From positions 4,216,001 to 4,280,000 of the forward strand of contig OY783212.1 in NCBI GenBank assembly GCA_963678705.1: a stretch of DNA of 64,000 nucleotides, read 5' to 3'. Shown here one piece after another: positions 36,095 through 64,000 of this stretch. This DNA comes from Panorpa germanica (lineage: Eukaryota; Arthropoda; Insecta; Mecoptera; Panorpidae). The stretch's first letter is position 1. Each line of letters starts with the position of its first letter. Under the pieces are notes generated by a model. The model saw only the letters and a program-made list of their open reading frames with translations, ran no database searches and had not been told where the DNA came from. The position numbers were made by a program, and so were the translations under genes.

Positions 36095-38122
36095 ATGAGT
36101 AATAGTACAGATAAAATAGTGGTGCAAAGATATGCTTTCTATTCATTGTACAAATGCTTTTGCTTTCGTAAAAATTTTGTGCCGTTGATTGCGATAACTC
36201 CTAAGAAAAATAAAACTTCAACTCTGGATTTCTTTGCCGATCGTATCAAATACGATGATTGGATACCAGTACTACTTGCGTTAAAGCAAGATAGAAGTTT
36301 GCGCATTATTGCAATTCGAGTTCGAAAACATTGGAAGAAAACTTTAGAATATGTTGATACCGAAGACAAAACTCGTGAGTTAAAGAAATTCCCGGTACTA
36401 CTTACTAAATATGTTCTATTAGCAACACTAGATGCCATTTCAAAATGTTTATTACATTCAAAATTACTGTCCTGCTTGATTTTGGAGGGTATTCCTCTTT
36501 CCACTACTTACATTACCTTAATTTGCAATTCTCTGTCCAAGAATCAAACCATTCGGCATTTTAGTTTGAGGTATTGCTTGATAGGTGATGAAGGTTGCAA
36601 AATAATTTGCCAACTATTGAAACACCTGTTAACCATACAATCTATCGACCTCACGGGCTGCAACCTGACGAAACAAGGTGCAAGCTATATTGCAGATATA
36701 CTAAAACAACAGGGAATTATCAGATACTCTGAACATTGGAAGCAAAGTTTGAGGTATAGACAGTGTGACTTGAATTCCGTTGGGGGACTTCGAAGGATAA
36801 CACTCAATGAAAACCGTTTGAAGGACGTTGGAGCAATGCTAATCCTTGAAAGATTACACGATGATATCTGGCTGAAAGCATTGGATCTGCAAAACTGCCA
36901 CATAACCGACAGCGCAGCCGAGTATGTGGTGAATACCCTTCAGAAGAACACCATATTGGATTTGATTGACATAAGGTGTAATAAAAATGTCAATAGAAGT
37001 ATATTAAAAGAAATCCAAAGTATTTTAGATCGTCCATCTTATGGAAACGCTAAAAAATATGAATGGCTTAACACTCCCGTGGAATTTATTATTTTGAAAA
37101 GACCTGTTGAAAAAATTTCAAGCAAATCAATTCCAGTGGAGGTTCCAAAGCATGTAAAGAAGGAAAAACCACTCGATATGCCGAAGAGGAAACAGTGGCG
37201 TCCTGTGCTGCGAAAACGATGTGAGGAGAATTTGAAGGAAGAGAGGTTGCGTAGTCAAAGTGATTTGTACCGGGAGTTTGTCGGGGACTCGGAAATTAAA
37301 GAAACTGCGGAAAGTCTAAACGGGGACCTGCATTCACAGATACTAACGATTGAGAAAGAGAGGCAAAAGCAACCGTCCTTGTTTGTCGATACGACGGTCA
37401 ACAACATAAATGGAATATTTGATGTGTTTAAAAATTTTGTGACGCTGGTCGACGGACATAATGTGTTTGCGTCTTCTCCAAATAGCCCTCCTAGCAACAC
37501 CACCTCAGCTTCACTTAGCTTCATAAACCGACGAAGGGAAGATAGTAACAGTTCTGTTACAAAGATCACTTCACTTGGTGGAACGTCAGATGGTCTAAGC
37601 TTCTTACCCACTACAACGACGTCAAACACTTCGGTACCGAGCTCGTCTCTCACGGACACGACTGTCCTCAGGAAGTCGCACAAAGAACTGTCGAAAGGAG
37701 ACTTAAGTGAATCCTACACTAAAGTAACCAGTGACACCAGTGGATCTACAACGCTTGTCGAATCGCCATCTTGCTCAAGTATGAATTCATTCATAACATT
37801 GAAAGACGAAATCACAAGTATCGGTGAGCCGAGAACACAAAGTCAAAATGCGACGGATATCCCTGATATGTTGATGGGATTTTTAAAAAAGGTAAACAGC
37901 GCTCATGCGGCTGACAAAAGCACTATTAACCTAAATAGCAGGGAGGTGAAGTCAGACAGCGTCTTACACACGAAACTAAAGCGTCAAGGAGAAGGACAGG
38001 ACATTAAGATGAAGAATGCACTAATAGATGTTTTTGAAATGGATATGGGCGATGCTTCATCTTCCAAGTCAAAAGAAAAATGTTTATCAAAAAAATTTGA
38101 TTTTGGTCTATTTCATGACTAA
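36095..38122 (+). CDS. CEP78: CEP78 homologue, centrosomal leucine-rich-repeat protein
   Basis: This intronless frame encodes 675 residues from the ATG at 36095 (a TTG codon two codons upstream is not used). CEP78 is a centriolar protein implicated in cilium formation and centrosome regulation. The match covers the family from end to end: LDFFADRIKYDDWIPVL (44-60), tandem LRRs of the RI type from about 124 to 300 with LTGCNLTKQGA (186-196), the diagnostic SLRYRQCDLNSVGGLRRITL (218-237), ALDLQNCHITD (262-272) and KYEWLNTP (321-328). The second half is Ser/Thr-rich and polar, as in other CEP78 proteins. The length is near the vertebrate 689-722. Vertebrate CEP78 is split into many exons, so a single exon here could mean intron loss or a retrocopy; I see no poly(A) tract or target duplication. 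It lies between ogre and Inx7 on the opposite strand. Confidence 0.9.
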   Translation: MSNSTDKIVVQRYAFYSLYKCFCFRKNFVPLIAITPKKNKTSTLDFFADRIKYDDWIPVLLALKQDRSLRIIAIRVRKHWKKTLEYVDTEDKTRELKKFPVLLTKYVLLATLDAISKCLLHSKLLSCLILEGIPLSTTYITLICNSLSKNQTIRHFSLRYCLIGDEGCKIICQLLKHLLTIQSIDLTGCNLTKQGASYIADILKQQGIIRYSEHWKQSLRYRQCDLNSVGGLRRITLNENRLKDVGAMLILERLHDDIWLKALDLQNCHITDSAAEYVVNTLQKNTILDLIDIRCNKNVNRSILKEIQSILDRPSYGNAKKYEWLNTPVEFIILKRPVEKISSKSIPVEVPKHVKKEKPLDMPKRKQWRPVLRKRCEENLKEERLRSQSDLYREFVGDSEIKETAESLNGDLHSQILTIEKERQKQPSLFVDTTVNNINGIFDVFKNFVTLVDGHNVFASSPNSPPSNTTSASLSFINRRREDSNSSVTKITSLGGTSDGLSFLPTTTTSNTSVPSSSLTDTTVLRKSHKELSKGDLSESYTKVTSDTSGSTTLVESPSCSSMNSFITLKDEITSIGEPRTQSQNATDIPDMLMGFLKKVNSAHAADKSTINLNSREVKSDSVLHTKLKRQGEGQDIKMKNALIDVFEMDMGDASSSKSKEKCLSKKFDFGLFHD

Positions 38123-42209: not shown

Positions 42210-42728
42210 TTATTCTATTTTCTTATCTAAAAGTGCATCTTTATAATCTTCTTCCAAATCTTGTTTCTTCTTAAGAGCCTCTACATCATTCTCATAGTCT
42301 TCTTCAAAAGCCTTTTTCTTGATCTTACCATCCAGTTCATCAACAGTGGTGCCATCAATTTCTTCAGCCAATTGAATGAACAAGTCGCGGAAAAGAAAAC
42401 CATCCATATTCTTCGCTAGGTAATATAAAAACAACCAATCAGCGAAATGGCAATGCTTGGTGACTGTGAGGACGTCCCAGGCGCGTAACGTTCCTGGAGA
42501 AGCTTGCTGGAAGATGTGACGATTGAACATGGACGATCTGGAGTGGAATATGAATGTAGCAATTCTGTAAAACAATCCCAGAAGAGTAACAATGGCAACG
42601 ATGAGGAACCAGAACCACAGGAAGGTGTAAATTTTCTCATTAATCACGTTGAGAGCCATAACGCACAGAGCGTCGTGTCGTTGAATACTACCGGAAGCAC
42701 CATACTTATAGAAGTCACATTTAGTCAC
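42210..42728 (-). CDS. Inx7: Inx7 shared exon 4 with stop
   Basis: The acceptor atgtttag|GTG starts VTKCDFYKYGASGSIQ. It carries both second-loop cysteines, the fourth membrane segment (YTFLWFWFLIVAIVTLLG) and a 100-residue cytoplasmic tail rich in Glu, Asp and Lys. The stop is at 42210-42212. Confidence 0.93.
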   Translation of the reverse strand: MTKCDFYKYGASGSIQRHDALCVMALNVINEKIYTFLWFWFLIVAIVTLLGLFYRIATFIFHSRSSMFNRHIFQQASPGTLRAWDVLTVTKHCHFADWLFLYYLAKNMDGFLFRDLFIQLAEEIDGTTVDELDGKIKKKAFEEDYENDVEALKKKQDLEEDYKDALLDKKIE

Positions 42729-45700
42729 CTAAACATAAATTTTAATTATTCGATTAATAAAGTTAAATAAATAAATGATCAATGTGTAATTTATTTAGAA
42801 AAAAGAATTTACTTTTGGGAATACAATTTCCAATGGATCCATTATGCTATTGAAATTGCCATTAACTACTTGTGGTCCTAGATTTAAAAACAGGCCTCCC
42901 AGGAAGGCATCGGTGATCCAGATCTGCAGGAGGACATTGAAGAAATTCAACAATTCGCAGAAGATCAACCAAGAGGACCACGGTCTGTTCACATGGAGAC
43001 GATTCATGAATGCTTTTTGAACCAGGACAACCTTCTTTGATGTTGATTCTCTCGAAGGTACTGTGATATTGTTTTCACATTTAACTTCACAATCTGCGTG
43101 TTGCGATAATGCTACCATCTGTAGGCCGTCAACAAGAGCTTTGATACGACCTCCTAAAATAAATAATAATTTAAACAATGAATAACTTTATTATTTCTAG
43201 TATTTAGATACTTCTGTTATATATGAAAACGTATCTAGATATAAAGTGTTACAGCACTAACGAGTATAAATAAATTAATTTAGTTCGTGATAGACTTGAG
43301 AGAATCGTGAATTTTTAGTAACTGCAGTTCTGTTACCTAACAATCGTGACTACACAAATTAGTTTCGTTAAGTACGAGTATATTGCATACAATAATTTAT
43401 AATACATAACAGTATTAAATTATGAATTAAAATGATACAGCCTTGAACTAAAACACAAATCAATTTAAATTTAATTAAATCGGATCCTAATTCTAATCGT
43501 TTTGTTTTGTATTAAGTAATGTTAGAATGTATGGTTTAGGAATTGATCATGTTTAACAGTAGCCTCATAATATGTAGGGCCACATTCAAAGTTCATAGCC
43601 CTGTCGAATTAACGATAAATACTAAAAGAACTGCAAAGAGAATTCTGGTTGAGATCAAAACAAGTATACGATCATTTAAAACTGACTGATTGTAAACCTT
43701 AGCCCGAACGCCCTTAGTGACAGAACGAACGTGTATACGAGTGAGAGAAAACACACTGCACGAACGAAACTAAACTGGTTTCGAGTAAATTTTCAGCGAG
43801 TCTGTTTCTCGGTTGCAGAGCATGGTTTGTTGCATGCTTTTGATGGTGACATCATGAGCGGAGATGTGTACAAATACTATTCAAAAGTATTTAAATACAT
43901 ACAAATACGACACAATAAAATCCCCTATTATGCTATTGTTAAAAATTAACCATAGGTTTGCAATCAATCGCCTCATGTGCAGACGCCCTAATTAGTAACT
44001 TAAGAAGGACCTCACAGGAGTGTATTAATAGCAGTAGTAAATGGGCGAGTAAAATTTTATTATTTATGGTACAAGGATCCTGATGAGGCCCTTGTGCGAT
44101 ATTTCTCGCCTTTTGATAAGGCGCTGGTAATAAAAGTAACGCGAATGCGTCACGAGGATGTTACAAGGCAAACTTAGTATGATTCTAATCGGGAAAATTA
44201 TCTATAACTTATTAATACAATTAATAATTTAATAGTAAAGGAAAACATTTAATGTAGACGAATCTGCCCAGTTAGTAGTGATATACATTTTTAAAGTATA
44301 CTGTTGATATATTCTTTTTAGAAATCTAGAAATTTAAAAATTTCAATATCGTAATTGTTTGCTTATTTAAAGATGTATTCTCTTTAATGACAATTTATTA
44401 TTTCTACTTCAATCATTCCACTTAGTAAAGTTATCTTCACTGGACGCCCATGCTCATTTTGCCACGTTTTCATCTCACAGATGGTTTCTATTTATATCTT
44501 ACTATTGTCCATGCTAAATCCTATTACTCACATTAAAATCTAATCCGACTAGACCTTGAAACTACATAAGGAACAGCTGTGCCTGCTTCTTTTATATTAC
44601 ATTGCACAACTTGGTTCCCAAAACTATTTTCATACTTCTTTACTACTTTCGTCTATTCATGAGTTCTTGATATCTTGCGATCTCAACTCGCAGCTGTTAC
44701 TTTGTTCTGGTGTTTTTTACGAGCTCGACATTTCTATACATGGAGATCATTTGTTGATTTCAACAATATTTCTTTGTAAATGTCTTATAAATGACATCAT
44801 CAAGAAATAAAGTAGTAATAAATATGCAAAGAATCGTCAGAAGAACTGACAATGTTTCTTGGACAATGAATAAACATTTACATGATGACTTAGAAATAAT
44901 TTGTTGACTAAACAGTAAATCAAATTGCTGAGCGCAATTTCTGAGAGAATTGAATAAGCTACTTGCTATGTGTTTCATGTATTGATTTATTATCTACCTA
45001 AGTGTCCTACGAGTAGTATATTTATTGCTTATTGAATCCGGTTACATGCTGATTGACCATATGGTGGTCGTCATAAACCATTTCATTGAATTCATGAATG
45101 ATTCCACTAATCTGTTACAAGGAAAACCAAGAAAATAATTATTATATAGGACCTAGCGTCATATACGCGGAAATTTCACGTATTTTAATTTACCTTCAAC
45201 TCTTCTCCAAATGTAATGCGGAAGATAGAACATGATGGCTTGTGCAAATAGCACAAAGGGAACCCATTGGTAGTAAGCATGTCTTATCGTTGGTTCGTCC
45301 GTGTTGGAAATGGGGCCCACTCCAGGATGGGGCACCAGACCTTGCAGCAATGATGTATCGTTCAAGTGACGCACCTACAACAAAAAATATTGTGAGAACA
45401 TGTGCTGATCTGAGTAACTATTCATGACATAGAGGACACATGTTACTGCAATATATTTTGAACAGTAACAGTGAAAGTAAACACCAAATTTTTAGATGAA
45501 TTATAAAAATTATAAGTGAATTCTTTATTTATTATTGTTTATAAATTCATTTTGGTTTAAGTTAGTTCACTAGGGATAATCGCAAGCAAAAGTATAATCG
45601 TATATTAAGTACACTTTGGAAGAAGTAATTAGAAGGAGGAAGTGAAAAAACAGAGTGTTTATGTCTGAACAGAGTGATAAAGATAAAAGGCAAGAAAGGG

Positions 45701-48700
45701 AAAATGAAGTCTGAAAGGAAGAAAGAATTGTACAAAGATAATAGAGGGTTTGTCGAGAGGGGACAAGGAAGGCAAAATGTGAAAGACGGAGGTACAGGAG
45801 AAATAGGAAACTGTGAGAAGGAAGGAGGTGTTCGGAACAGGAAGGGAGAGGGTAAAAAGAAGAAGAAGCAGAAAATACTGTGTGGAAAGAGAAAGGTCTA
45901 TAATAGTTAAGATTAATTGTAAGTCGAAATGAAATGTTGTAAGAAATATTAATGTAGATTGTAAAGCCAAAAGGCAAACAATTAATAATAATAATAATAA
46001 GACATGCAAAAAAATTTAAATAAAATTTATTTCAACAAGTACACTTTCTTTGGAGATTGTACTCAATACGTTTCATTCATATACAGACTAAATACAATCA
46101 CGTAAATGATATATGGCAAAGCTGTCTTATATAATGACGTACGTTATAGCAAAGTGTCGTATTTATTTATGTATCTGACTACGTATTACGTATAACATTT
46201 CAAAATTACAAAAGTAGCATCACTAAAACCATTGTAACTCGTAAAATAATGGTCAGAATGTCATGAAATTTTGTTACATATTGGTTGAAGGTTGGTACTA
46301 TCTAAAAATCATATTGATTCGTCAATAGTGACGCCATTTATATGTCCTCCTACGAACTTATTGAGTAATGTGTTATGTAGTTTATTAGGGAACTGTCTTA
46401 AATTCACACGTTCATGTCACTATACGTGTTATCTGTAATTTGATTATCGGTTCTTTTCATTCAATATCATTTCTCAATATTTGTTATTGGTCAGGTGTCT
46501 AAGAATATGTTATCAGGTATTTATAATCAATTAGTAGTAAAATATTGATACTTGCAGCATAGTCGGACATCAATCCATGCTCTTTCAGAAGAAAAACAAA
46601 CCAATTTCTCTAATATGCTTGTGACCATGACCATGTATATATAACTGTACTATATATTGATTAATTAAAGTAATCCAAAGTAATCCAAGTAATCCAATGT
46701 ATCTGTTACAAATATTCATAAAAATTATAGTTAATTTCAAGTACTTTATATTTTAAGTCGCATATTCCTGCTGGGCTGGCACAACTGACGTTGGTTCCTG
46801 TAACGTATAGAAGGAAAAACTTTCTTGTATCTCACTTCACTCAGAAACTCAGAACACTTCTATTTTTGAACTGAGTATCATTCTAGTTTCAGGCTGTAAG
46901 CAAAATCAATTCTAAGTTTTTATTATTCTAAATTTATAGTGCTAAGTTTATATTCCAAACTAAACAGGATATCTACAGAAGAAAAAGGATTATTGTGCCT
47001 TTTATTCCGAGGTTAAATCCGAATTTAACTGGTCTAAACAGATTACAAATATGTCTTTAATATTTTCCATTCCATAATATCATATAAGTCTTACCACGGT
47101 GTAAGTAGTTGTGAAGAAACAAAACGTATTGATGACATGGTCCGGGATTGGCCCTTCGTGTTGCGTTATACACTTAATATGTTCACCGATATACTGACGT
47201 GACGTCACCAGAATCGTGCACACTAGCAACATTAAAAATGTGAACCGATAATGTAATTTGAACACCAAATTATCAACAGACACTTTCTTCGGCTTGAACT
47301 TAATGTGTGCCGAGATTGATTGGAACGTAGGCAACATGTTTTACAGCAAAGATCAACACAGAAGTAAATAATAATAATTAGTTGTTAGTTATAATGTTGT
47401 TGATTATTTAATTATAGCATAATTAATTTTAATAATCATGTAAACGTGCTAATAAGTAGGTTTAGTTTTTTGTTATCACTTTTTTTTGTTACTATTCACT
47501 GACACAAACAGTTGCTGTTACATCTACTAAACGTATAATTGAACTAATCACTTTTCACTGCTGCTAACAATTATCTTATCATTGAATTATTTTTCAGAAG
47601 CCACAAACCTTTTGCTGCAATTATATTTCTGAGTATTTTATATTGAATGGTTTCTAAATTGTTATTCCGCGAATGAATATAGTTCAACTAGTTTCCGAAG
47701 TTGTACCGAGTCACTTGTAGTTTCCAAATTGCATTGTTTATATTTCGATTAGTATTGCATAAGTATATTCATATATGCTCCATAATGTGAAAATAATATC
47801 CTGAATATATATTGCATATACGTGAAATGTACATGCAGCAATGGTTTAAAAATGCACATACCTTTGCATTTGCACATACATAGGACGTATTAAGTATTTA
47901 TTTAATACAGGGTCGCTTTGAAGATTGGTGTGCCTTTAGCCACAACTTGTGTGCGGGCCGGGCATCCTTACTTAAAAATTTCCGTGAGAGAGTTTCCAAG
48001 AAATCTATTCCCTAAAAATATATAAAAAAAGTGACGTAATATTACTAATGTGGGTACTACTACAAAGTGTATAAATGGAACTTTTGATTTAATTTGTATC
48101 TAGTCTGTATTGAAACCTAATTTTTCAACCTAAACCTCCAAAAAATGTGGGTCCTGGAGCGGGTTATACTCTCTATTTTGAAATCAACATAAAAAGTCAA
48201 AATAATCACGTGATCAAACGATGAAACACCTCTGATTTTCACGCATTATCAGTTCTTATCAATTTTATTTCATTACAAAGACAAGTACGCGAGTAGGTAT
48301 GTAAGTCAGGTTCTGAATGAGACGGAACGCGGACCAATTAAGCAGAAATTAATGAATCCTTATTAAGAGTTAATTACAAATATGGAACATTACAATAGCG
48401 GAAACATTTATTAAATTCTACCTTAAATTCACATATTTATTTTATGTTTTAATCTTAAATGTAAATTTGAGCTTGTGACAGGTTTTTTTTAAATTAATTT
48501 ATTTAACGTCGGCCTACTTCCGACATTCTCCTTCCATAGTGAGATGGTCTCCTATATGGTGTCGTGGACTCATATAAATGTACTGCATCGCTATATAATA
48601 AGTTTTTTATAATGTATGCACGTAATCGAACCCATAAGACACAGCAGTTACCACAAGCATCATGCTCACTGTGTTCTCCATGTGAAGAAATAAAAAGAAG

Positions 48701-51700
48701 CAAAAATAATGATATTAAACACAGTAATTTATTTGAAATAAGTTTAATAATTCATATTTAAGCAAAGTATATTATAATTATAGTACAACGCATGCACAAA
48801 AAGTACATTCGAAACAAAAACTAGTAAAGAAGGTCTTACTAGTCTTAGAGTGGGGCTTACCTAGCTATTTCGATTTTTATCTTAAAGATAAAGAAATAGG
48901 GTTCCACAATAATCATTTTGATAATTTGACAAATTGAATCCAGTGTTTATTTTGAAAGTGCCAGACTTTTTTGGGCGCCCTATCTACGTCCTCCGTCTGA
49001 AACCCAAAAACCGATGTCTGACTGAAACTGGATGCAACGCTGTTCTTTATATGACGTAATTAATGACAATTATCATTAATTATTAATTACGCAAATGAAG
49101 ACGATAAATTAAGTTAATAAAATGTACATTAAAATTATGTAAGAATATCTTACATACGAGTAATTGAATACTTAGTATGAAAAGTTTAAATAGATCAATT
49201 CACATTATGTTGTTTTTAATCAAAGAAGTTGACAGAGGCGGACTGAGTTCGTGAAATGCTTGTTCCTTTACACACGTATAGACATATTAACAAACTTTAG
49301 AGGCTCTCCATAAACTATGTAGCTCCATTTTTGGCTCTTTAGAACTGCTACTAGTACACAAACACATTGATGGAATCATTTACATCAAGAACTTACCACC
49401 GTATACGTAGCAGTGAAGAAACAAAACGTATTAATCACTTTATCAGGTATAGCACTATTCTTACTACTGTCAGCTTGAACGCATTTAATATGTTCACCAA
49501 TATATTGTTGTGACGTCACCAATATAGTACATGTTAACAAAATCAGGAAACTAAAACGATAATGAAGCCTAAACACTAAGTTATCAATTGACACTGGCTT
49601 CAATTTAAATCTAAAGTTTGATTTGATGGATTGAAATGTTGACAACATTGTTTATTAACAAAGTTTCACAGATGACAATTATTAAGTACTAGTTTTTAGG
49701 TTATGAATGTTTTTGGTTATTTTTTTTTAGGTTATGTAATGTCTACGGGTTCTAGACACTGGTCACCATTTAACAAGTGTATTACGACTATTATTTCATC
49801 GCAGTAATTAATCAAACTCATTAAGTGGACGGAACTGAAGCAGGAGTGATAAACCTGTTGTTATCTGAGGATAGAAACGTTTAAATCAGGTCAGCCTAGA
49901 AAAAATATTCCTAGACTAATACATCGCATTTTAATTCATCGGTCAACTATTTATTGCGAAGTAGGACTTTGCAAATTGGGTGAGAAAAGAATGAAGTAAG
50001 TGAAGAAGGCAAATAAACGAAAAATGAAAAAACGTGAGTAATTGTTTTAGTCAAATCAGTGCCCTAATTTATTAACTTCATTAGTTTGGCTGCAGGTTGT
50101 GTCACCACAGCTTTTGACTTGACCGCATATTTAGAAAATGTGTTGTCAGTAAGCCACAACCCAGTAAACATTTTGGAGCATTTTGGAGTCACTTTGACAT
50201 CATATTGGAGATGCGTATGATTTTTTTGTCATGAAAGAGTTCATTTATAGTTCAGTTTCTCACAATCGTTCATATGAAATGTCTGTTTTATCGGCTACAG
50301 ATGACGGAACCACTCCACCTGTCGGAATACAAATGAAGACAAAGTTGATGCGAACTATAATTGAAGTGAAATAGTGAGAGAAACGTCACTAAATAGGGCA
50401 CTTCACCAAATGTTTACTGGGAAATAACAAGTTACAACGAAAATTATTACATGTGTTGTAAAATAAATTATATATTGAACATAATATGACATCAATGTAT
50501 ATGCCATACAAGGAAGAAATAACAAAGTACTATTTGAATTACTAGGCAAAGCGTGATCGTTTCTTGGTTTACTTGCTAATCTCTCAAGTCTATTTACATA
50601 CAAGTATGTTAAATTTGTTCTACTCTATGTATACAAAATAAGAAGCTAGCAAATCAAATCGCTTATTTTCTTAAGTTACAAAAGCAATTACGCAATATTT
50701 CTATGTAATGTTTGTTTTTACAAGTTTAAGTTAATTTGCAACTAACGAACGCTATTCATAAAATTATTGTTTCCAATGTAATACAAAGCCCGTGAAGTAT
50801 TAATAAAAAGAGAAAAAAAAATGTAATACACTATATTTTACACTATTTATATGAAAATTTCTAGAAGAATTTTAATGAATATTGTATAGGCAGTTTCGGT
50901 ATTAAACTTGACAGGGACGTAGGCATCCCGTAGTGGCCAATGTACGTAAGGAAAAGAAGAACCATTAACTTACCAGGGACTTAAAAAAAATTTGACCCAA
51001 AACAATTAAGTTAACTAGTATAATAGAATTTTTTTCGTGACGATAAATGGATAGTAGATAGCTCTCTTTATTTTCATGTCAAACAATATTTTTACAACCG
51101 TTCCATCTCTGGCTTTATGTAAAAGCAATAAACTGCAAATACCTTTTCAAAATACGAATTTCTACAATATAATCAATATGACTTTTTATACAAAGCCTTT
51201 TTCATAGAACGCACTAAGAGATCTTAATAGCTAAAATATATTTAAATTGACGTGTTAAATGTAATAAAAATGGTGTAAAGACCTCTTTAAAATTTACTAG
51301 GTAATAAATAACAAACAATGATATAAGAGACCCCGAAAAATCCTTAGTAATAAAAATATAATAATTAAAGTTTTTAATTTATGTATGAATATTTTTGAGG
51401 GGATACAAATTTGTACATTATAAACCCAGAAACATTACAGTTAGGGGGCTTCTAACCATTTCAAAAAAATATAAAATATGTACACATCACTGCACAAGTT
51501 GGTAGGAGGACACACATATAGCGCCACTATTGATAAATTCATATGATTTTTAGGTTGTATCAACCTTTAAACAATATATGTCAAAATTTTATGACATTTC
51601 GACTATTAGACTATTAGACTTACAGTGGCTTTAGTGCCGCTACTTTTGTAGTTTTCAAAATAATGGAAAAATCTGAATTTCTAGTGTATTGATAAAGTAT

Positions 51701-53344
51701 TGCTTTTAAATGGCAAACAATACCGGGTCCGAATAACACTTGTCAAGTTCTTGCTTTGCTTGGACGGTATTTTTTTGGTTGTATTTATGAGTTAACTATT
51801 TAATGAAGCAGATAGAGAAAACAGTTTTACATATCTTATAATAAAAAAGCATGACATAGGGAAAACACTAGAAATAAATTAACATCAATACTGCAAAATT
51901 GATTATTTGACAAACCGAAATCTTTCACAAAATCGGTTTGTTACATAAATGTGTTCTACGACGCATTATGGTAAATACACATAACAGAGAGAAATTCCAT
52001 AGTCAAGATAAGGAATAGGGCAGGAAATATAACATGTTGAGTAACAACCCCATAGATCAAACACTCTCGTGTTTTTTTCTCATTAAAAATTTGAATAAAA
52101 GATAAATAATCTATTATAGAATATTACAATAAATCTGACTGCATACAAAACACATTTATAACTATACTTTTTTCTCACTGACAAGTATTTTTTATCCCCT
52201 GTTAAGTTAGTCTCAAATAATCAATGCAGTCGGTTACATTTTTCATAATTATACGATAACTATAAATGGCTGGCAGTTTATTAAATTAATTGTTCGGTTT
52301 TTGTGATTAATGGCACAGCTACTAGTCATTTAAGTTCACCACACCTGATTCATGAAAACATTATCAATTCTTATCTGCTACCATAATTTAAACGACAAAT
52401 ATATTTCAGAAACAATGTGGTTTTGTGATTTGGTTTTTTTTATTGCGATATTCCAATGTTGTGTGTAATTACACTTTACTTATTTAATATTTTATTACTT
52501 TACTTTATTACAGCTAATTTGCTAGTACATATAATTCATACAAGGTGGTACTACTTATATGCACTATATTTAAAATAGTGCAGAGCTATTCTAATTTCTA
52601 AAGTGAATGTGGTTCTAGTTTTTTCCTATGAAGAACACCATCAATTCAATGTTATAGTTTTAATCTAAATTCTCAATTCTAAATTCTACATATAATAAAA
52701 TACAAAAATAAAAACATTCTAAACTGTATTTTTTGAAAAGAGGTTGAACCTAAGCTACTCAAATTGTAATAATTACACTCTTTAACTTAAATCATACTAT
52801 GAGACCTGAAAACAAAGAAACGATATTTAAAGTTTATTATTTAAGTTGTCAATTCCTTTTTATCTAATTCTTTAATAACTTAAAATTATGCACAGTGAGT
52901 TCTGTCAGCTCCAAATATTAAGTACACACTACAATGAAAGTAGCTATTATTAATATATACCGTTAGCTCACCTGACCAGAATGAACTTGTAATATCTCTG
53001 GTCAGTGTTACCAACTAAAGAAATATAATTTCTTTACAACTATATAAGATAAAAAGCTTGTAGCACGGAATTACCTTAAAGATTATTAAGTACGTACTTA
53101 CCACTGTATACGTGGTAGTGAAGAAACAGAAACTGTCAATCACGTGTTGATTAATTGGCCCATTAGAAGCTGTGATGCACCGGATGTGTTCCCCAATGTA
53201 CTGTTGTGACGTCACCAACACTGTGCCAGTCAATAGGAGGAGCACTGTAGCGCGGTAATGAACTTTAAAAACTATATTATCAATTGTTACTCGCTTTGGA
53301 GTGAATTTAAAATGTGTACAGATCTTTTTGAAAGCAGGATACAT
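42210..53344 (-). CDS. Inx7: Innexin-7 gap-junction protein with three alternative first exons
   Basis: A shared body of exon 2 (45194-45374), exon 3 (42813-43153) and exon 4 (42210-42728) follows three tandem first coding exons (1a 53102-53344, 1b 49397-49648, 1c 47095-47337). Each joined to the body gives 427, 430 or 427 residues, close to fly Inx7 (438). Innexins form gap junctions and hemichannels in the plasma membrane. Inx7 identity rests on QYIGEHIKC and NTFCFF in the first loop, RHAYYQWVPFVLFAQ, EGGRIKALV, and DALCVMALNVINEKIY. Second-loop cysteines are 259 and 277 (1c numbering). The tail is strongly charged, with repeated EEDY. All junctions have GT/AG borders and keep frame (phase 0, 1, 0). 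Whether all three first exons are expressed is inference; each needs its own promoter or exon skipping. Confidence 0.9.
42813..43153 (-). CDS. Inx7: Inx7 shared exon 3
   Basis: The acceptor attttag|GA is followed by GGRIKALVDGLQMV, the variable cytoplasmic loop, the third membrane segment (LIFCELLNFFNVLLQIWI) and part of the second extracellular loop up to LEIVFPK. The donor is AAA|GTAAAT, phase 0. Confidence 0.92.
43154..45193 (-). other. Inx7 intron between exons 2 and 3
   Basis: This 2040-bp intron has no nested gene. Near 43965 (aatcgcctcatgtgcagacg) it carries a short piece related to 27293-27315. Near 44085-44130 it carries a hairpin-prone stretch. Confidence 0.7.
45194..45374 (-). CDS. 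Inx7: Inx7 shared exon 2
   Basis: The acceptor ttttttgttgtag|GTG begins VRHLNDTSLLQGLVPHPG. The exon contains RHAYYQWVPFVLFAQ, the innexin signature at the second membrane segment. The donor GTT GAA G|GTAAAT is phase 1, and the split Gly codon is completed by exon 3 to give EGGRIKALV. Confidence 0.92.
45600..46003 (+). mobile_element. 3' tail of a purine-rich non-LTR retrotransposon (probable)
   Basis: An A/G-rich stretch (gaagaagcagaaaatactgt) ends in gattgtaaagccaaaaggca and an (AAT)n tail at about 45986-46000. It is homologous to 32690-33260 on the other strand. The long Ser/Leu/Phe-rich ORFs on the minus strand are shadows of this bias. Confidence 0.6.
46195..46376 (-). mobile_element. 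mariner-like element, 5' end remnant
   Basis: Read on the minus strand, it begins cattactcaataagttcgta and continues as in the copies at 3118 and 51483. It breaks off just before the transposase start. Confidence 0.7.
47095..47337 (-). CDS. Inx7: Inx7 alternative first exon 1c (81 aa)
   Basis: It starts at an ATG (MLPTFQSISAHIKF), has RQYIGEHIKC (C56) and NTFCFFTTTYTV (C73), and ends ACC GTG|GTAAGA, phase 0. It is nearest to the shared exon 2, 1.7 kb away. Confidence 0.9.
49397..49648 (-). CDS. Inx7: Inx7 alternative first exon 1b (84 aa)
   Basis: It starts at an ATG (MLSTFQSIKSNFRF), has QQYIGEHIKC (C56) and NTFCFFTATYTV (C76), and ends ACG GTG|GTAAGT, phase 0. Three extra residues lie in the first extracellular loop (DSSKNSAIPD region). 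It is about 75% identical to 1c over the first 56 residues. Confidence 0.88.
50160..50421 (-). mobile_element. MITE family copy 2 with terminal inverted repeats
   Basis: It begins cccagtaaacatttt and ends caaatgtttactggg, giving near-perfect terminal inverted repeats of about 14 bp over a 262-bp element. Its body is the reverse complement of the copy at 54041. It lies between first exons 1b and 1a of Inx7. Confidence 0.85.
51483..51745 (+). mobile_element. mariner-like element, 5' remnant with broken transposase start
   Basis: The end acacatcactgcacaagttg is a diverged form of the family terminal sequence. About 180 bp later, ATG GAA AAA TCT GAA TTT encodes MEKSEF and is followed by a stop and frameshift. 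It lies between Inx7 first exons 1b and 1a. Confidence 0.65.
53102..53344 (-). CDS. Inx7: Inx7 alternative first exon 1a (81 aa)
   Basis: It starts at an ATG (MYPAFKKICTHFKF), has QQYIGEHIRC (C56) and SFCFFTTTYTV (C73), and ends ACA GTG|GTAAGTA, phase 0. It is the most distal and most diverged copy: about 63% identical to 1c over the first 56 residues by my count. Confidence 0.85.
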
Positions 53345-53639
53345 GTTGCAACTGTAGTGGACTTCATCTGTAGGCTGGACCGTTACGTCGAACGTCCTGG
53401 ATTACTTAAATTGTTTAAATTTTGATAATTATGTTTGTAGACTAGGACAACGTCTCTCCTTCGTGATAACACATCTGAATTGTTAGGGTTCTCTCAATTA
53501 ACATTTATTTATTAATAATCAATTCCAATCGAATATGTCTATGATCAATTCTTTGAATCAAATATGCAACCTAGAATGGACAGAAGAATACTAGTTACCA
53601 AAAAAACAGAAAGGAAGAGAAAGCACAGAAAAATTACAC

Positions 53640-53837
53640 ATGCATACATCTTCAAGACAACCTATTTACGACACTTGTAAAAAAGAATTAAAAGTTGAAC
53701 ATTTAGAATGCAATAAATTTAGCCATATTAGACAAAATTTACAACTAGACGATAACGTTACTGACATAATTCATGCCAATGACATTAATATTAATAAATT
53801 ACAACAATTTTTACGAGACACAAAACTAATAAATTAA
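53640..53837 (+). mobile_element. Possible C-terminal end of a non-LTR retrotransposon ORF2
   Basis: The 65-residue frame includes RQPIYDTCKKELK and HLECNKFSHIRQNLQL, then a short helix-like end FLRDTKLIN. The latter part is reminiscent of LINE ORF2 C-termini (HilleC...R..L...I..FL). A TAA stop is followed by AT-rich sequence. This rests on pattern only; the catalytic domains are absent. Confidence 0.35.
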
Positions 53838-54040
53838 ATATAAATAAAATACGTATAGGTTCAAATTCCAAAGCCGAATCTAAAAGTGCCCTGTTTTAAA
53901 TTGCAAAAAAATTGTGAGTACAAAACATATGTTTTGTAAAAGTTTTGAAAAAAGATTGGTGGGGAGGGGGGGTCAAAATTACAGAAAATATGTGACGTAA
54001 TTTATGGATGGTCCTTAAGAAATGCATAGATAGTATAAAA

Positions 54041-54291
54041 CCCAATAAACATTTAGTGAAGTGCCTTATTTTGTGACGTTTCTATCACTATTTCACTTCA
54101 ATTATAGTTCGCATCAACTTTATCTTCATTTGTATTCCGACAGGTGGAGTGGTTCCGTCATATGTAACCGATAAAACAGACATTTCATATGAACGATTCT
54201 GAGAAACTGAACTATAAATGAACTCTTTCATGACAAAAAATCATACGCATCTCCAATATGATGTCAAAGTGACTCCAAAATGTTTACTGGG
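54041..54291 (+). mobile_element. MITE family copy 3 with terminal inverted repeats
   Basis: It begins cccaataaacattta and ends aaaatgtttactggg over 251 bp, and is almost identical to copy 2 in the opposite orientation. It lies about 700 bp upstream of Inx7 exon 1a. It encodes no protein. Confidence 0.85.
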
Positions 54292-57200
54292 AAGTTTCAC
54301 TTGTAGTTTCTCGGTTCACTAATGATTCAGACGCCTTTTGAACTCCTGGTACAGTGTCTGCTGAGAGTAAATTTACTTTACTAGAGAGTTTTTCCATAGC
54401 TCATCTTTAAAAAAAAAAAATTTTACAACAATTATTTTGTGCCTTGAATTATTTGATTTGAAATTCAGTTCAATTTTTAAACAAAAACTATTTATAGAAT
54501 GTATTGTTTATATTTAATAATATTACTAATTGTTATATAAATGACACTTGTTTATTATTTGTTTTAGTATTAAAATAATTAATAAAGTTGATTTGCATTC
54601 AAGGCACATAGTTGATAGTGCCAGTCTCCGAAATAAATATAAAACCATAACGTTGTTGTTGTTGTTGTCGTTGGCGATTAGTGATTAGGCCCGCATTGAC
54701 CGATGCAACAATACAATTGACATAAACAATTTAGTCGGTTAATTATTATGTTTTGTACATTACTGTGTTCTAATTTAGAGGTTATGTAGACGTTACGTCA
54801 TCAGTTGGAACTGGACACGTGTATGTGTCCAAATCGGTTGAAGGGAATGGAAGAGTGCAGGGATAAAGCGCATGTAACATTCTCGTGAAAACCAGTAGCA
54901 GCTCAGAGAAATGTGTAAACGGGTTTTTTGTTAATTTTTTTCTTTTACAACTACTGACTACCTGTATTTATTTCGTAATTCAGGTTGAATGCTTTTTAGT
55001 TAAAATTTCGACATAGGTTCCAATGTACCTTTTGTATATTCAATATTTTAATGCCTTTGAAAAGCGCTGCATGATGACTATTACTGTGTATCATATTTGT
55101 ACCTTCTTAATTAAATGAGTTACCAAATTAAGAAGACGGAAATAAGTTTCTAAGGATGTTATGAATCTTGTTATAACAAAAGCAATTTGAGTATCTTTAT
55201 CAAAGAAATACAGTTTGGTATTTTTGTATTTAATTTATAATAAGATTTTAGTTTACGAATTTAGAATAAAATATAGTATTCAATTTACTTTTGAAATTGT
55301 AAATTCATTTAACATGTGAATATCTGAATACATCCCTGTCCCTGTGCATCCAGGAATGTTGTCAAACTGCAACAACATATACAGGTACAGCTGGAGAAAA
55401 TATTCTTCCAGCGTCTACAAGAAATCGGAGACGGATTTACACAGATCTAGTTGAAGATGCAAAACAGTAGATGTAGCACATATGTGTCTATAGTTTTTTT
55501 TAACAGAAGTTTTTAATTACAATCTACCGATTGAGCACCGGGTACTGTAAATGCCCTTCACACCATATCTGCATTGGGGAGAGCAGGTTCATCCCAATTC
55601 AATTGATATGAACATTTAATATTTGAAAGTTTACAAAAGGTTTTTATTACTTCATATGTGGTATAATTACCTTTCAAATAATATTTTTTTCATATCCGTA
55701 AGACCTTTAGATCCAGAGATATTTTTAGCACAGTCATATAAAAGAAAAGATTAAATTGAAAATAGTAGACATTCTAACAGAAGGGGGATAACCCCCACAT
55801 GTGGGTGTTTTTGTCGATAAAATTACGTGTACAATATGCTCCTAAATTAACGGTAGTGGAAGACAGGACACCCTGTATTTTTAATATCATATACGGTGAA
55901 AAACTCATCTCTCTAAATAAAACCGATGTTAAAAAAAGCGTTGTCATTTCAAAAATTCATTACTGCGCTTGCGTACTAATTTGACTTACAAACGGCGTCG
56001 ATTTTCCAGCGTGTAAAACTGTAAAAGCAGTAATAGATATATGCATATGGAATATGGATATTCCCAGACTTAATCAGTTACTGGTTACAGTTACCTTGCA
56101 ATATTATTCATTTACTGTGATGATTTACTTTATCACTTGTTATGTTTTTTACAATAGTTAAGTAGTAAAATAATGACACATTTGTGTTTTACAATAAGTT
56201 TTCAAGAATATGGCCGTCTGTCATGCGTGATTATCATCACGAAGTGTCATAAACAAGTATTTACTTTACTTTGTCGTAAAAATAGATTAAGAACAAGCAA
56301 ATAATGAATATTACACTTGAATCTTATCATGTAGCGATGACTGATTACTCGAAACGCTGCGACGATGCTCGCACGAAGCCCTCAATTTAAAGTGAAACAA
56401 ACGTCAGATTTTTACTCTACTGAACAATTACTAAATTAATATTTATTTCTTAATAAAGATAAAAGTACAGTGCCACACAAAAGAACACTCAGCGCAACCA
56501 TTCAATGGGCTAGTGTCCTATGTCTTAATTTCTATAAAACTCTACTATATATTTATAAAGATGGTTACTAGAACCTCAAATGTCCAATTATTTTTTAATA
56601 ACTCTTTATATTTCAGGAGATATTAACTATTAAAAAAGTCATTTTTTCTCTTTAATTATTAAAGGGATTCAACGTTGTACACATTCCAACTGAATGTGAC
56701 ATCACAACCGCTAGTTACTATTTCTTTTATACAACAGAGCGTAAGAGAGATAGCATATTCAAGATAGAACTCTGGCAAGTTTACAGGCTACCAACCTTAC
56801 AGCTCATAAATCTCTGCTATATGTATTTATATATCAAAATATCAAATATTATTTACAGCTATTTCAAGGAACAATAAAATTTCAATATTATGTCTGTCGT
56901 AACAGGGTTAAATAAAATAAAAACTTATTATTCTTTGACTTGACTTGATTATTTCGACTACCAACAGCTACACAACATTACCAGAACACTGACCTATTTA
57001 ACAAATAACTGACGTTAAAATGCATTGCACGTCATACAAATATGGCCGATCATTTCTAGCGCTAAAACTACAATTCAAATTGAGATATTCAACATTCAAC
57101 AACAGTCAACATTTAGATATTTAATAAAATAGACACGCCAATACACATTTATTAACATCAATTTCAATCAATTGAAAATTGCTCATTACATGGTAATAAA

Positions 57201-57782
57201 ATTTAGTCGAAAAAATGCTTTAGACACCTCGTTCATAGGGTAAGGCTGCACTGCGAATTAGAACAGTGACAGTTTATACATCAATCTTTGATTGAAATTT
57301 TTACAAATTTACTATTGCTTACTCATACAACATCTATCATACTTCTTTCACATCGTTTCGTGTTATAAATTTTTCTTATCTTTCAAATACATCCATTAAA
57401 ATTTATGATGGCACCTGTCAGGATGTAAATTACACATAAATTAATAAAAATTAACATTCCTGTATTTTTTTATCTATAATTTTATTTAACAAACTTGTTA
57501 TCTACACAAAAATTACAATTCGTTAAAAATGCATGGGCAGGAGTAGCCTTGTGACGTCATAATGCAAAACGGTTCTAGTTTTTAAACTCGTTAACTCGTC
57601 AGGTGTTAAATGAATAATAACACGTTTCGGTTTGGAATGATAAACTTGTTGTTATTATTATGTTAGTTGTTCATAATTCACTTGCAAGTTATTTTTACAA
57701 TGTTGATATTTTTTTTTTTTCTAATTCCTGTCATTGTTAGAATTTTGTTGGTGATGCAATAGCGATGTAATGTAGAACACAT

Positions 57783-57835
57783 ATCACATCACTCAATACG
57801 TTCGTAGGATGGAATATAGATCTGTCAGACTAACT
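57783..57835 (+). mobile_element. mariner-like terminal sequence only
   Basis: atcacatcactcaatacgtt and the following ttcgtaggatggaatataga match the first 50 bp of the family. The match ends there. Confidence 0.6.
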
Positions 57836-60554
57836 GATATATTTGAAATATAAATATTTAAGGCGCCAACATTCAAACTTAAAATTATTTGCAGAAGGCT
57901 CAATCAACTTTCATAAATTTAAAACACACTATATTATCTATAAGCAAAGCGGATGTTAAAACAAAAAATTATATTTAACAGAGTCGCAATTAATCAAAAT
58001 AAATTAAAATGTGTTAGCTAATAATAAAATAATGTTTGTTTTATTTTTTGTTTTAGAGGATGTTGAAAATTACTTTTTTATGTAGGTGTATTATATTATG
58101 TATTCAATTATGTACACAATGGGTACTTATTACTAATCTAATAAATAATTAATTATCTTGTTATTAAAAACCTGGAATTTCCGGAAATATTTGGTTTTAT
58201 AATTTATTTAAAGGTTTGTAAGCGTCAATAGATTCGTATTGTTCGCCAAATTATTACTATGTGATGTAGTAATATAAAAATTACTATGTGGTATATCAAG
58301 TAGTACCAATAACATCAAGTAGGTACTATGTTCACAAAGCAATTTTTTTGAATATTTCTCACAGTGTTAAAAAAACATTTTGTTGAGAGATATTTAGGAG
58401 ACAATGCAAACTGTCTATGAAGATATACAGCAATATTTCTGTAATGTAAAATTGACTCCTACAGTATATGCTCAATGGCATATCCGATAGTCAAAGAATA
58501 CAATAATTAGATTAATGATTCATTAAGCCTGAAGTTAGCTAGTTTGGATGGTATTCAATCCGTTTCTTGTAGATTTTCATTCGAGATTTTATGGTTGTGA
58601 TTTCCAAATTACATTGGTGATATACCAAGATATTGTATGAAGATATTTTGATTGGATTCTGTAGTGCATTTTTATATTCGCCTTGGCTGATGTGCCCCAT
58701 AATTGAATTCCAAAAGACCAGATCAGTCTTAGGATGCATTTATAGAGGAGTAGCTTATTGTCCAGTAAAAGTTTTGATTTACTATTGATTACCCAGTAAC
58801 TTTCCTTAATTCAAGTCCCAATGCTTTAATCTAAGCCTAACCAAATGGATTTGCAAATGATGCAAATGTTGCAACTGCTGCAGGTATCACATTACACTCA
58901 CTCATCTACATACATGTTTCTAGTTTTGCTGTTCTGCTTTTATAGCTCCTTGCATCATTACCACAGCTAAACCAAGGTGTATTTAGTTCAGCAGTTTTTC
59001 TATTTGCTTGCAAACTGTAAACACACCATGCAAGCAAATACAGTCTTTTATTTTAATCGAAATGTTTGCAGATCATTAATGGACTCAACCATGTCAGTTG
59101 TCGTTGTCACATAAATAAAATGTCAAACAAAAGCAGATCCAGAACAGATGCTGCACATTGCCTTACAGATACACAGATAGACAGTTGTTGAAACGGAACA
59201 AATATTATAAAGATAATAGTTGTTAATAATACCTCATTTTTATGTTAATTAGCAGACGCTCCATGTCAACAGATATATCTATAATGTAATATTATTACTA
59301 GAAATACCCGTGGTTATCGTTCTATCCCGAGTAGAAATATTACTCGGGAAACACCAGGGCCCGATCAGGCTCTGATCCTGTGATTGCCTAATCAGGTTGT
59401 CTTAAGGCAGGTCATCAAGGTATCAAACGCATTGGATTAGATCGTGCCAAAATTGGAATAACCAGGAAGCGGTGAGATGGGTTAAGCACGACACAACACT
59501 GAGATCGGTTTCTGATTCTGAGCTAAGATCAATTCCAACAGTTGGTCGAGAAGCAATCTCGTTGAAAATGCAGTATGTATATATCTCTAGCAATTGTAGT
59601 GATCGCTGCATAAAGGTTACCTTCTTTTCTCTTTCACGGTTCATACGATAAAACTGCAGTATTTTTTTGCAATTTTTAAAATCTACTATTCCCCGTGTGT
59701 TTACAAAAACCGAGAATATCTTAGTTTTTACCAGTGGTGCCGAGTTAAAAGAAAATGGAAAAGTACAAGAAGTGCAATAGTAGGATTCTAGCAGGAAATA
59801 CAAATATGTTTTAGAAACTCAATTCACGTTAGGATCCCTGTAGGCCTGAACTTTGCTTTGCAAGCATGCACCGATTAATCAGGTTTAAATTCTCAAACAA
59901 ACTTTAGTTATGGTATAATTGAGAATTAGGTCACTAACGAAAAATGAAATCAAAGTATTTTGCTTGGTTATCAAATAGTTAACTAACCAAAAATTAGAGC
60001 TTAGAAACAAAAGTTTGAGAAAACGGCATTAGTTGTCTAAGAATTTAAAAAACGAAAATATACTGTATAGATTTTTTGGTATTTTGTTTTCCAATTATTG
60101 TGGGGACAAAAAACAACAAGCTGTTGCTTTGTCTAATCATTGTCCCTGCTGAATTGAACTATTTAGTAATCATAACAACTCAACTTATTTTTAGTTGTAA
60201 AAAGCATTGCGTGATAACATTCATTTATTGAAAATATTAAAACAATTACATTGAACGAGTGCAATTAAGATGAAGAAATACATTTATCGATAATTAATTG
60301 CTTTATTGTTTTGTGGATGTACAAATAAAACTTCTGGCAATTCAATTAGTACAAGTTAAATTTATTTAAACAACAAATACGCTTATCAGTTCATATCCTG
60401 TCGCTCAAAGTTTAATTGATGGCTTGTATCTTATCTCAACATCTTGAAACTTTGTTCTAAGTGGGTCTTGCAAACTTCAGATATCGATTTATTTAAAGAA
60501 CTTGAGATTAAATGACAGATGATCGTGTCAATGATACGTTTTAATTATATAACA

Positions 60555-60895
60555 AATCAATTAAAATGAGTTGCCAGATAATGAGGGGTATGGCTGTGGA
60601 AGAGAGGTGCAGAGGATGACAACGGAGTACAACAACAAGAATGGATGAAGAAGATGGAAGAATTAAAGAACAAAGATTTAGGCAAGGAAACGAAAAAATA
60701 AGAAGTAATATCTGAGAGAAGAAGAAGAGTAACAGATGGAGCACATGAGGAATAGGTGTAGTGAGAGGTTAAGAAGAAGAGGTACAAGATGACTTTCGGA
60801 AATAAAAAGAAGGAAGAAAAGAATAGAGCGAGAAGCATTGAAAAGGAATTTAAATTTTTAAACTTTGTAAATGAAATAAAATGTAAAATCAATGT
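60555..60895 (+). repeat. Purine-rich stretch, possible retrotransposon tail
   Basis: An A/G-rich segment with many gaagaag words is similar in composition to the tails at 11400 and 45600, but without a clear ending motif. Minus-strand ORFs of up to 111 residues here are compositional shadows. Confidence 0.4.
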
Positions 60896-61034
60896 AAGGA
60901 TTATGGAGGAGAATAAAGGAAAACGTACATACGGCTAGCTATTAAACATTCCTTTTCCTTTAATTTAAAAAAACTGTGCCAGGGTAAAGAAATTGCAATA
61001 TAGAGAGATTAAGAACCTAATTCTAAATTACATT

Positions 61035-61090
61035 TGAAATTAGGTCTGGCTTGAGGATCGAACCCGTAGTACAGCATCATAGCTCGATTA
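61035..61090 (-). repeat. Possible tRNA-derived SINE fragment
   Basis: On the minus strand, tactacgggttcgatcctca contains a good RNA polymerase III B box (GGTTCGATCC). A weak A-box-like segment lies upstream. No folded tRNA can be drawn, so this is at most a SINE or tRNA relic. Confidence 0.3.
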
Positions 61091-61960
61091 ATATCGATAT
61101 ATTGATTTTAACTTATAACTTTCTTATTATAAAAGTTATAACAAAAAGTAGGTAATGAAAGTTGTAGATAGATGTGTAAAAGATGTGCGTGAAAGTTGTA
61201 GTTTTCATGATAAACAAATACAACTGATTACACTCTTATTTTCAAGATAGCGACCGAACAGGGAAGTTCCTAACCTTGAAAACTCAAACATACATCCAGA
61301 TTTTATCTCGTTACGTGATAAAATAAACTACTGCAAATGAAATTAACAAATAAAAGAAACAATTAAAAAATTGATTAAAACATTTATTTTATTATTATTA
61401 CTCGTATAATCAAGTCGTCGTTTGGAAATTGTTAATAACAATAATCGATTAATTGGAATACGAATAACTCTTCAATGCTTGTATGTTTAGAACATAGTCA
61501 ATTCCAGAAGATGGTACGAATACTCTATGGGCATTTTCTGTAAAATAAATATTAAATTATGTTAATCGATACTGAGTTGGGAATAGAACTAGTTTAGGTA
61601 ATTATGCTCATGAGCAGAGGCGAATTAAGACAGCTCGAGACTCAAAGTCCTAAAAATGTGTTTATATGCTGCAGAGCCGTTCTAAGGGGATCGATTATAG
61701 AATGCAGTTTGAAATCAATAATAAATTACGTCACACAAAATTGATGGCTTTTATAAAATTGACTGATCCGCTCATGACAAAATTAAGATGTATGACCAAT
61801 GCCAATTTAGCGCTACCTACGAACTAATGAAACATATAACCAGAGAAGAAATAAAGAAATAAGTAATTTGGGAAATAAAGTATGAAAATAGAACTGTTTT
61901 GGGTCCCCGGCACATTACATCAATGGCTCGATGCTAAGCGTCTTACATATTGCCATAAAA

Positions 61961-62143
61961 TCATACATTTATTTTACAATTTATAATATCAGTTTTATTA
62001 GTGCAAACCTTCACTTTAACCGCTTTGGTGTCCCTTATTATTAGTTGTAAAGGTTTGACTCTGTGTTTTTGACACATCAACTCTGCCTGTATTGACTGGA
62101 TTAGTAACGGAAAGTACATGTTTTCTCCAGACAACTCTAAATT
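61961..62143 (-). CDS. LRR protein, exon B with stop
   Basis: It encodes 60 residues starting NLELSGENMYFPLLIQSI and ending INCKINV with TGA at 61961-61963. The exon was found by its acceptor and by continuity of the LRR pattern. An AATAAA on the minus strand (61968-61973) overlaps the last codons. Confidence 0.7.
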   Translation of the reverse strand, partial: NLELSGENMYFPLLIQSIQAELMCQKHRVKPLQLIIRDTKAVKVKVCTNKTDIINCKINV

Positions 62144-63580
62144 CTGTAAATAAAGTACCAGGTAATAAAGACTCTTACGGAAATTACAGCAACATCATTG
62201 TGAAAATAGCATTTTGTTCTCCTATGCTATGATGTGCTTTACTATAGACTTGACTTTTAAACCAACAAGGTATCTGATTAAATATTTGTTGAAACTCACC
62301 GTCAAATTTCTACACCCTCTGACTAAAGCAATACCGAGGTGTGTGTTAATACCAGGAGAGACTAATTTAATATCGGTCAAACTCTGACTTCTAGCAAGTT
62401 CGCTCATGGCATTCTCCAAATGTCCCCTGGAATCTGGATCACCATTGTTTATAATAAGTTTGCTTATGTTTCGATGTGCCGCAATTGTTACAAATGTGTA
62501 TGGAACAAGTTCAAGGCATTCACTTGATAACTCCAATTCCTGTAGATCCGCACAATTCCTTACAATATTTGTCACTATATCGCTGGTAACGCGAAACGTC
62601 TTCAATCGGACAATCTTTAGGTGTATAAGTTTGTTAAAGGAATTACCACTTAAGTTATTTAGATTTCCAGACAGACTTAGATGCTGCAGCGTTGATGCTA
62701 CTGTTTCTACTGCTTGGAAAATTCCCGGCACAATATAGGAATCAATAACAAACAAACTTAATGATTCAATAGTAGTACATCTTGCTATGCACTCGATAAG
62801 TGTTTCATTGTCATCTACTATTGAATCCTCTGATATCTCTAACCGCTTTAACGTCCATGGTAATTTTTTTAGACAGACTCCGTTGATGTAACTATGAACC
62901 AGTGTAAACTCCTCGAGACCTCTGTTGTTGAGGAATAATGTTTCCAAAATATCATCGCTGTGATCTTCCACGGTAAGTGTCAAGGATTTGAAGGTGGTCT
63001 TTTTACTAAGTATAAGTATATCGTTTCTGCATAGTTGTAGGAAAGGAAGGGATAGTATCTCTAGTGGGCATTGGTCAAATTGTGTACATATCCCGATAGG
63101 TACCACGTGTCCAGCTTGTTTTATTTCATACCGCTTAAGAGTTTTAGGTAAAGTTCTGACGTAATAAGAGTTAAACGTGGACACACTTACCAGCTCAGTA
63201 TTGCTTTGATACACCGCCTCCAAGATACTCTGATTTAGTTCGGACCATTCGATCCTAATATTCAGTATTTTTAAGTTAGTGTGATCACGTAAGATTAATA
63301 GATCATGCATATCTAATGTTATTCCCGGAACGTCCAGAATTTCTAACTTACGACTAAAAGCGACAATAGCACGGACAAAGTACTTGAAATCATTACATCT
63401 CGGCCTGGTGAGATGCACTTCCCTTAAATTTATACATTGATGTATCCGTTGTAGCGAAGGTAGGGCATCTTTATATAACACAGCATCTATGTTGAAGTAA
63501 TGTTTAAGCGCCCATGCATCATCTGCAGTCTTCATATGATCCAGAGAGGATGTAGAAGCATTTACATTTGATAACTCCAT
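61961..63580 (-). CDS. Leucine-rich-repeat protein, two exons, function unassigned
   Basis: Exon A (62300-63580) and exon B (61961-62143) give 487 residues from the ATG at 63578-63580 (GAAATGG context). The donor ACG|GTGAGT and acceptor tttacag|AAT are phase 0, and the junction restores a repeat, CRNLT plus NLELSG. The protein is built of about 16 irregular LRRs (LREVHLTRP, LEILDVPGI, LEILSLPFLQ, LKRLEISED, LQHLSLSGNL, LQELELSSEC), without signal peptide or membrane segment. The repeat style resembles F-box/LRR substrate receptors, but I see no F-box at the N-terminus. One could lie in an exon further right: an in-frame TGA at 63644-63646 requires any upstream exon to join between it and the ATG. 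I cannot name an orthologue. Confidence 0.75.
62300..63580 (-). CDS. LRR protein, exon A
   Basis: It encodes 427 residues from the ATG to the GTGAGT donor. The frame is also open upstream to about 63643 without an ATG. Confidence 0.8.
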
Positions 63581-64000
63581 TTCGATAAAGCTGATGCTAC
63601 TAATTTCAAACAATGGAGATTGGAGTGGACAGGTAACAAATCTTCATTCACCTAACATGAAAACACAAATCACTAAGTTGTAATCAAATTATTTAATTAT
63701 CAGTAAACTAAAACGAACATCAAAAATATAACAAAATATTACAATTGAAAATTCTTTCGTCAGCTGAAGACACTGAACAAACAACAGCACAAATGAAATG
63801 TATCTATTGTATCTTCTTGTAATTGAACGAACAAATGATGGTATGCTTGAGGAACAGAATATTTATTATTGATTTGCTCCTATTGTTTCTACTAGTGTAG
63901 CTGATGCTCGGCTCCGATGTTCCTTTTTTGCCAATAACGTCGTTGCCAAATCGTGCTATTTTATCAACCATACCAATGCTCTCTTTGTCAACACTATCGC
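63581..64000. other. Right edge of window
   Basis: It holds the 5' side of the LRR gene. On the minus strand, a good acceptor-like run lies near 63650 (tgttttcatgttag). A frame open from the edge to about 63810 codes about 62 residues without a recognised domain. Confidence 0.4.

Follow-up and report, generated by a model that had tools for sequence, protein, structure and literature searches.

The layout of the innexin locus described here is best read as a single gene that has three alternative first coding exons. In the 64-kb window (the whole stretch of DNA that was analysed), exons 1a (53102..53344, 81 codons, 243 nt), 1b (49397..49648, 84 codons, 252 nt) and 1c (47095..47337, 81 codons, 243 nt) lie in tandem on the minus strand, and are followed on the same strand by one body of three common exons (exon 2, 45194..45374; exon 3, 42813..43153; exon 4, 42210..42728, which includes the stop). 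The one-gene reading rests on the open frames of the three first exons, their common phase and undamaged donors, the single body behind them, and a conservation that is stronger in the protein than in the DNA. We consider it very probable that this is one Inx7 gene whose three mutually exclusive first exons go back to tandem duplication of exon 1, with each probably having its own start site and being spliced directly to exon 2.

Three first coding exons and a single body

Each of the three first exons starts with ATG, holds a single open frame and ends in phase 0 at GTG followed by GTAAG (1a, GTG followed by GTAAGTACGT; 1b, GTG followed by GTAAGTTCTT; 1c, GTG followed by GTAAGACTTA), and the initial annotation had the coordinates, start codons, phase and donors right. 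Several starts with same-phase donors and one body are the structure of alternative first exons of the ShakB kind. Taken singly, all three exons matched the Pfam Innexin family (E = 2.1e-18 for 1a and for 1b, and 4.6e-21 for 1c). Joining them to the body gave a complete open frame with one stop in every case, encoding 427 (1a), 430 (1b) and 427 aa (1c). The introns leading to exon 2 would span 7727 (1a), 4022 (1b) and 1720 nt (1c), and both introns within the body are GT-AG.

If the general innexin topology applies, the alternative part of the protein comprises the N-terminus, the first membrane segment (TM1) and the stretch of the first extracellular loop (EL1) that carries both cysteines; all forms have the remainder of EL1 and the EL2 cysteines in common. 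Exon 1a, for example, encodes the N-terminus, TM1 and the initial part of EL1 with both cysteines. The proposal that every first exon encodes a full N-terminus, the first membrane segment and a first extracellular loop held for the N-terminus, TM1 and the two EL1 cysteines but not for the remainder of the loop, up to the YYQW of TM2, which is encoded by exon 2. Exon 3 presumably covers the cytoplasmic loop and TM3 region, and exon 4 is taken to hold EL2 with its cysteine pair, TM4 and the C-terminus.

Searches of the window with tblastn returned one full match each for exons 2, 3 and 4, as expected from the earlier claim of only one common body. The remaining matches to these exons with E < 0.1 all fell inside a second, ogre/Inx1-like innexin gene (20974-6500), and the interval 45375-64000 contained none below E 0.1, which bears out the view that no copy of exons 2-4 lies among the first exons and that these are not three genes. 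Exon 1 queries found the three copies and the sole first exon of the ogre-like gene, with other matches at E of at least 0.1.

Identity of the gene and its neighbours

The joined 1a form, which was the only joined form put through the whole-protein Pfam scan, aligned with profile positions 1-332 of 333 of the Innexin family (E = 4.6e-103), and against C. elegans INX-6, whose structure is solved, the 1c form gave a match with E = 1.3e-19. C56 and C73 lie in exon 1c, YYQWV in exon 2, and C259 and C277 in exon 4; the four cysteines are invariant across a four-row alignment that includes ogre. Assignment of the cysteine pairs to the extracellular loops follows the innexin topology that we assume.

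Membership in the Inx7 group was judged against unverified sequences of five fly innexins (Inx4, 5 and 6 were left out). The best match of the joined proteins outside the window was this fly Inx7 (45-46% identity, compared with 39-40% for Inx2), and in trees with these fly sequences the body grouped with fly Inx7 at 100/100 and the three first exons did so at 97/95. Measured against these unverified fly sequences only, the grouping of the gene with fly Inx7 is thus supported, and the Inx7 label of the initial annotation stands on both best match and trees. The similarity to fly proteins also points to a probable insect source. Among the first exons, identity to the fly Inx7 used was 60% for 1c, 58% for 1b and 53% for 1a. 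In the reverse direction, the N-terminus of that fly Inx7 gave 93.2 bits with 1b, 79.7 with 1c and 68.6 with 1a, the last being lower than its 73.6 bits with fly Inx2. The best tree tentatively placed the three exons together, apart from fly Inx7, with support of 63/38, and an alternative clade of fly Inx7 with 1b and 1c had a p-AU of 0.065. Exon 1a pairs with 1c in the best tree (86/87), whereas 1b and 1c are closest by identity.

Other features of the window were recorded alongside. The ogre/Inx1-like gene has four coding exons on the minus strand (20974-20726, 12156-12049, 11316-11161 and 7069-6500), is 74% identical to the unverified fly Inx1, and has one first exon that we found. Between the two innexin genes, on the plus strand, lie an uninterrupted 681-aa ORF with leucine-rich repeats (36077-38122; Pfam LRR_6), which we take to resemble CEP78, and an uninterrupted 627-aa ORF (23780-25663), presumably hAT/ZBED-like, which gave no Pfam family above the cut-off and no solved-structure match. 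Upstream of Inx7, a 473-aa open frame on the minus strand (62222-63643) had leucine-rich-repeat matches that were all sub-threshold. Scans of the 64-kb window for tRNA genes and Rfam families gave no hits. According to PMC8580445, the fly 6E4 cluster consists of Inx1, Inx2 and Inx7, and the Inx1-Inx7 neighbourhood found here agrees with it.

Divergence, selection and age of the first exons

Over the tblastn alignments, protein identity between the first exons was 56% (1a/1b), 65% (1a/1c) and 69% (1b/1c). Synonymous change was near or past saturation (pS of 0.72, 0.85 and 0.84 for 1a/1b, 1a/1c and 1b/1c, respectively; NG86, 81 codons), while non-synonymous change in the same pairs was low (dN of 0.32, 0.28 and 0.21; pN 0.18-0.26). 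We compared these pairs with a neutral simulation in which sequences were changed to the same DNA identity under a simple base-composition model. Observed amino-acid identities of 0.568, 0.654 and 0.716 exceeded the simulated maxima of 0.494, 0.457 and 0.536 (2000 simulations per pair), and only a fraction of 0.02-0.03 of simulations per exon pair was free of stops.

The combination of near-saturated synonymous and low non-synonymous change indicates that the exon copies are old and have long been kept as coding sequence, and argues against a recent duplication of the first exons or one produced by assembly. Excess non-synonymous change had been named in advance as a sign that two of the copies are decaying; dN is 0.21-0.32, and all three exons are open with intact donors. 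Pairwise comparisons average selection over a long period, however, and one copy could have gone out of use recently without this being visible in them. Branch lengths were 0.70 for 1a (the longest), 0.28 for 1b and 0 for 1c, and the long branch of 1a, together with its low score from the fly side, would fit a constraint on this exon that has been relaxed or has changed.

Searches for related loci with the 1c protein gave no pattern match in viral contigs and six matches in genome contigs, none of which was a relative. With the four-row alignment, relatives numbered none among 53 pattern matches in viral contigs and none among 112 in genome contigs.

Exon edges and 5' flanks

The ungapped repeats among the three exons begin 6 nt 5' of the ATG and reach no more than 5 nt past the donor boundary, and homology thus stops at the exon edges. 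Alignments of 300-nt flanks beat all 200 shuffles for none of the three pairs downstream and for one of three upstream (1b/1c), compared with three of three for the exons themselves. The alignable flank of 1b is 64 nt long (49667..49730, minus strand, -82 to -19) and that of 1c is 61 nt long (47357..47417, minus strand, -80 to -20), and their local alignment scored 42, whereas the 200 shuffles reached at most 34. It lies at a nearly equal distance from the ATG in both, which suggests that the 1b and 1c flanks are common by descent, with a certainty lowered by their AT-richness.

Two pairs of inverted repeats occur in the same region. Copies of a MITE-like element, 96-100% identical and inverted, lie at 50179-50421 (intronic, between 1a and 1b) and at 54041-54282 (upstream of 1a), and a second pair, 80% identical, lies at 46247-46373 (in the intron after 1c) and 51482-51608 (between 1a and 1b).

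Choice among the first exons

A first exon brings a donor and needs no acceptor, and a transcript from any of the start sites would therefore be expected to skip the other first exons. In addition, an in-frame TAA lies two codons 5' of the ATG in exons 1b and 1c, and would cut translation short if one first exon were spliced to another. The three predicted subunits would be common from exon 2 on and distinct in the N-terminus at the pore entry, in TM1 and in the EL1 stretch that carries the cysteines, and cell types could, by analogy with ShakB, choose among the isoforms. Use of all three exons in transcripts, separate promoters and the properties of the channels are what we infer from the sequence. 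In the 600 nt upstream, a scan for four core-promoter motifs matched none for 1a, Inr-like and CCAAT motifs for 1b, and Inr-like, TATA-like and CCAAT motifs for 1c, matches that are unremarkable for a scan with four motifs tried and no shuffle control.

The choice might instead be made by splicing and not by promoter, if one or more common non-coding exons upstream were joined to 1a, 1b or 1c, an arrangement that we regard as unlikely. Acceptor-like sites upstream of 1a (at -482, -247 and -227) and of 1b (at -217 and -187) would allow it; however, 1c has no such site within 600 nt and no AG in the final 60 nt (the same interval holds one AG before 1b and five before 1a). Sites were called acceptor-like if they had YAG and a pyrimidine fraction of at least 0.65, a crude rule by which the real exon 4 acceptor (0.53) would go uncalled; neither it nor the motif scan tells separate promoters from a spliced leader.

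Use of a single first exon (1c, which is nearest the body, or 1b), with the others as relics of partial gene duplication, appears more improbable still. The branch of 1a is the longest of the three, 1c has the highest identity to the fly Inx7 used (though 1b is best from the fly side), and Aedes Inx7 is reported as a single form (PMC8580445). Against this, the frames and donors of all three exons are intact, synonymous change between them has neared or passed saturation, and in each of the three pairs the proteins are more alike than in any of the 2000 neutral simulations. Almost no weight can be given to the upstream exons being separate tandem innexin genes with bodies missing or misassembled: tandem innexin genes are usual, and the ogre-like gene lies downstream, but the window consists of A, C, G and T only, with no N, the interval 45375-64000 has no match to the body at the threshold above, and the first exons are too divergent for haplotypic copies. 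We therefore retain one Inx7 gene with three alternative first exons as the preferred reading.

Comparison with known innexins and implications

The array resembles Drosophila shaking-B (Inx8), whose variants ShakB(Lethal), ShakB(Neural) and ShakB(N+16) have a variable N-terminal part and a constant remainder. The fly ShakB variants are reported to diverge over the first third of the protein and to be the same beyond the outer end of TM2 (PMC5412853, PMC4833477), ShakB(N) and ShakB(N+16) differ solely in the first 16 residues (PMC5412853), and rectifying giant-fibre junctions are formed by ShakB(N+16) and ShakB(L) (PMC4833477). One N-terminal swap in ShakB produced rectifying junctions, but the reverse exchange did not carry the gating over (PMC5412853), and the functional analogy is therefore partial. 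Unlike shaking-B, to which we liken it by protein variants, the present case involves another innexin gene and three full, separately diverged N-terminal exons in tandem.

Counting one first exon, the gene has four exons, as does Inx7 of Aedes aegypti according to PMC8580445. However, no alternative splicing was identified in the mosquito gene according to that paper (which cites Calkins et al.), and the array may therefore not be general. The same source reports coding alternative splicing in Aedes Inx1 and Inx3, but of the C-terminus and not of the N-terminus (PMC8580445). For Tribolium castaneum, the name Inx7a hints that this beetle has more than one Inx7 sequence. Among the titles and abstract openings listed from the open-access literature, mostly without subscription papers, no report of alternative first exons at Inx7 was found, and earlier notice of such an array elsewhere is quite possible. 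The best reading is a set of first exons like that of ShakB, a kind already known from the alternative N-termini of that gene, which came about at Inx7 by exon duplication.

Differences between the predicted isoforms are spread over the alternative part (pN of 0.22-0.35 in residues 1-22, 0.12-0.26 in TM1 and 0.20-0.23 in EL1). Net charge (K+R-D-E) is +2 (1a), +1 (1b) and 0 (1c) over residues 1-12, and +4, +3 and +3, respectively, over residues 1-22, and exon 1b adds three residues in EL1. By analogy with ShakB, the Inx7 forms should differ in voltage gating, rectification or hemichannel pairing. More tentatively, and with the odds against it, the Inx7 of this lineage may have evolved its own three N-terminal modules separately from shaking-B, such that one gene would supply hemichannels of different gating and docking and could form rectifying junctions wherever two cells differ in the first exon that they use. 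If all three exons are used, Inx7 would be a second, separate innexin with a choice of N-terminal module, after fly ShakB. Its isoforms would then be natural exchanges of the N-terminus, TM1 and EL1 with the rest of the protein kept constant, and could serve to test which part determines voltage gating, rectification and the choice of partner.
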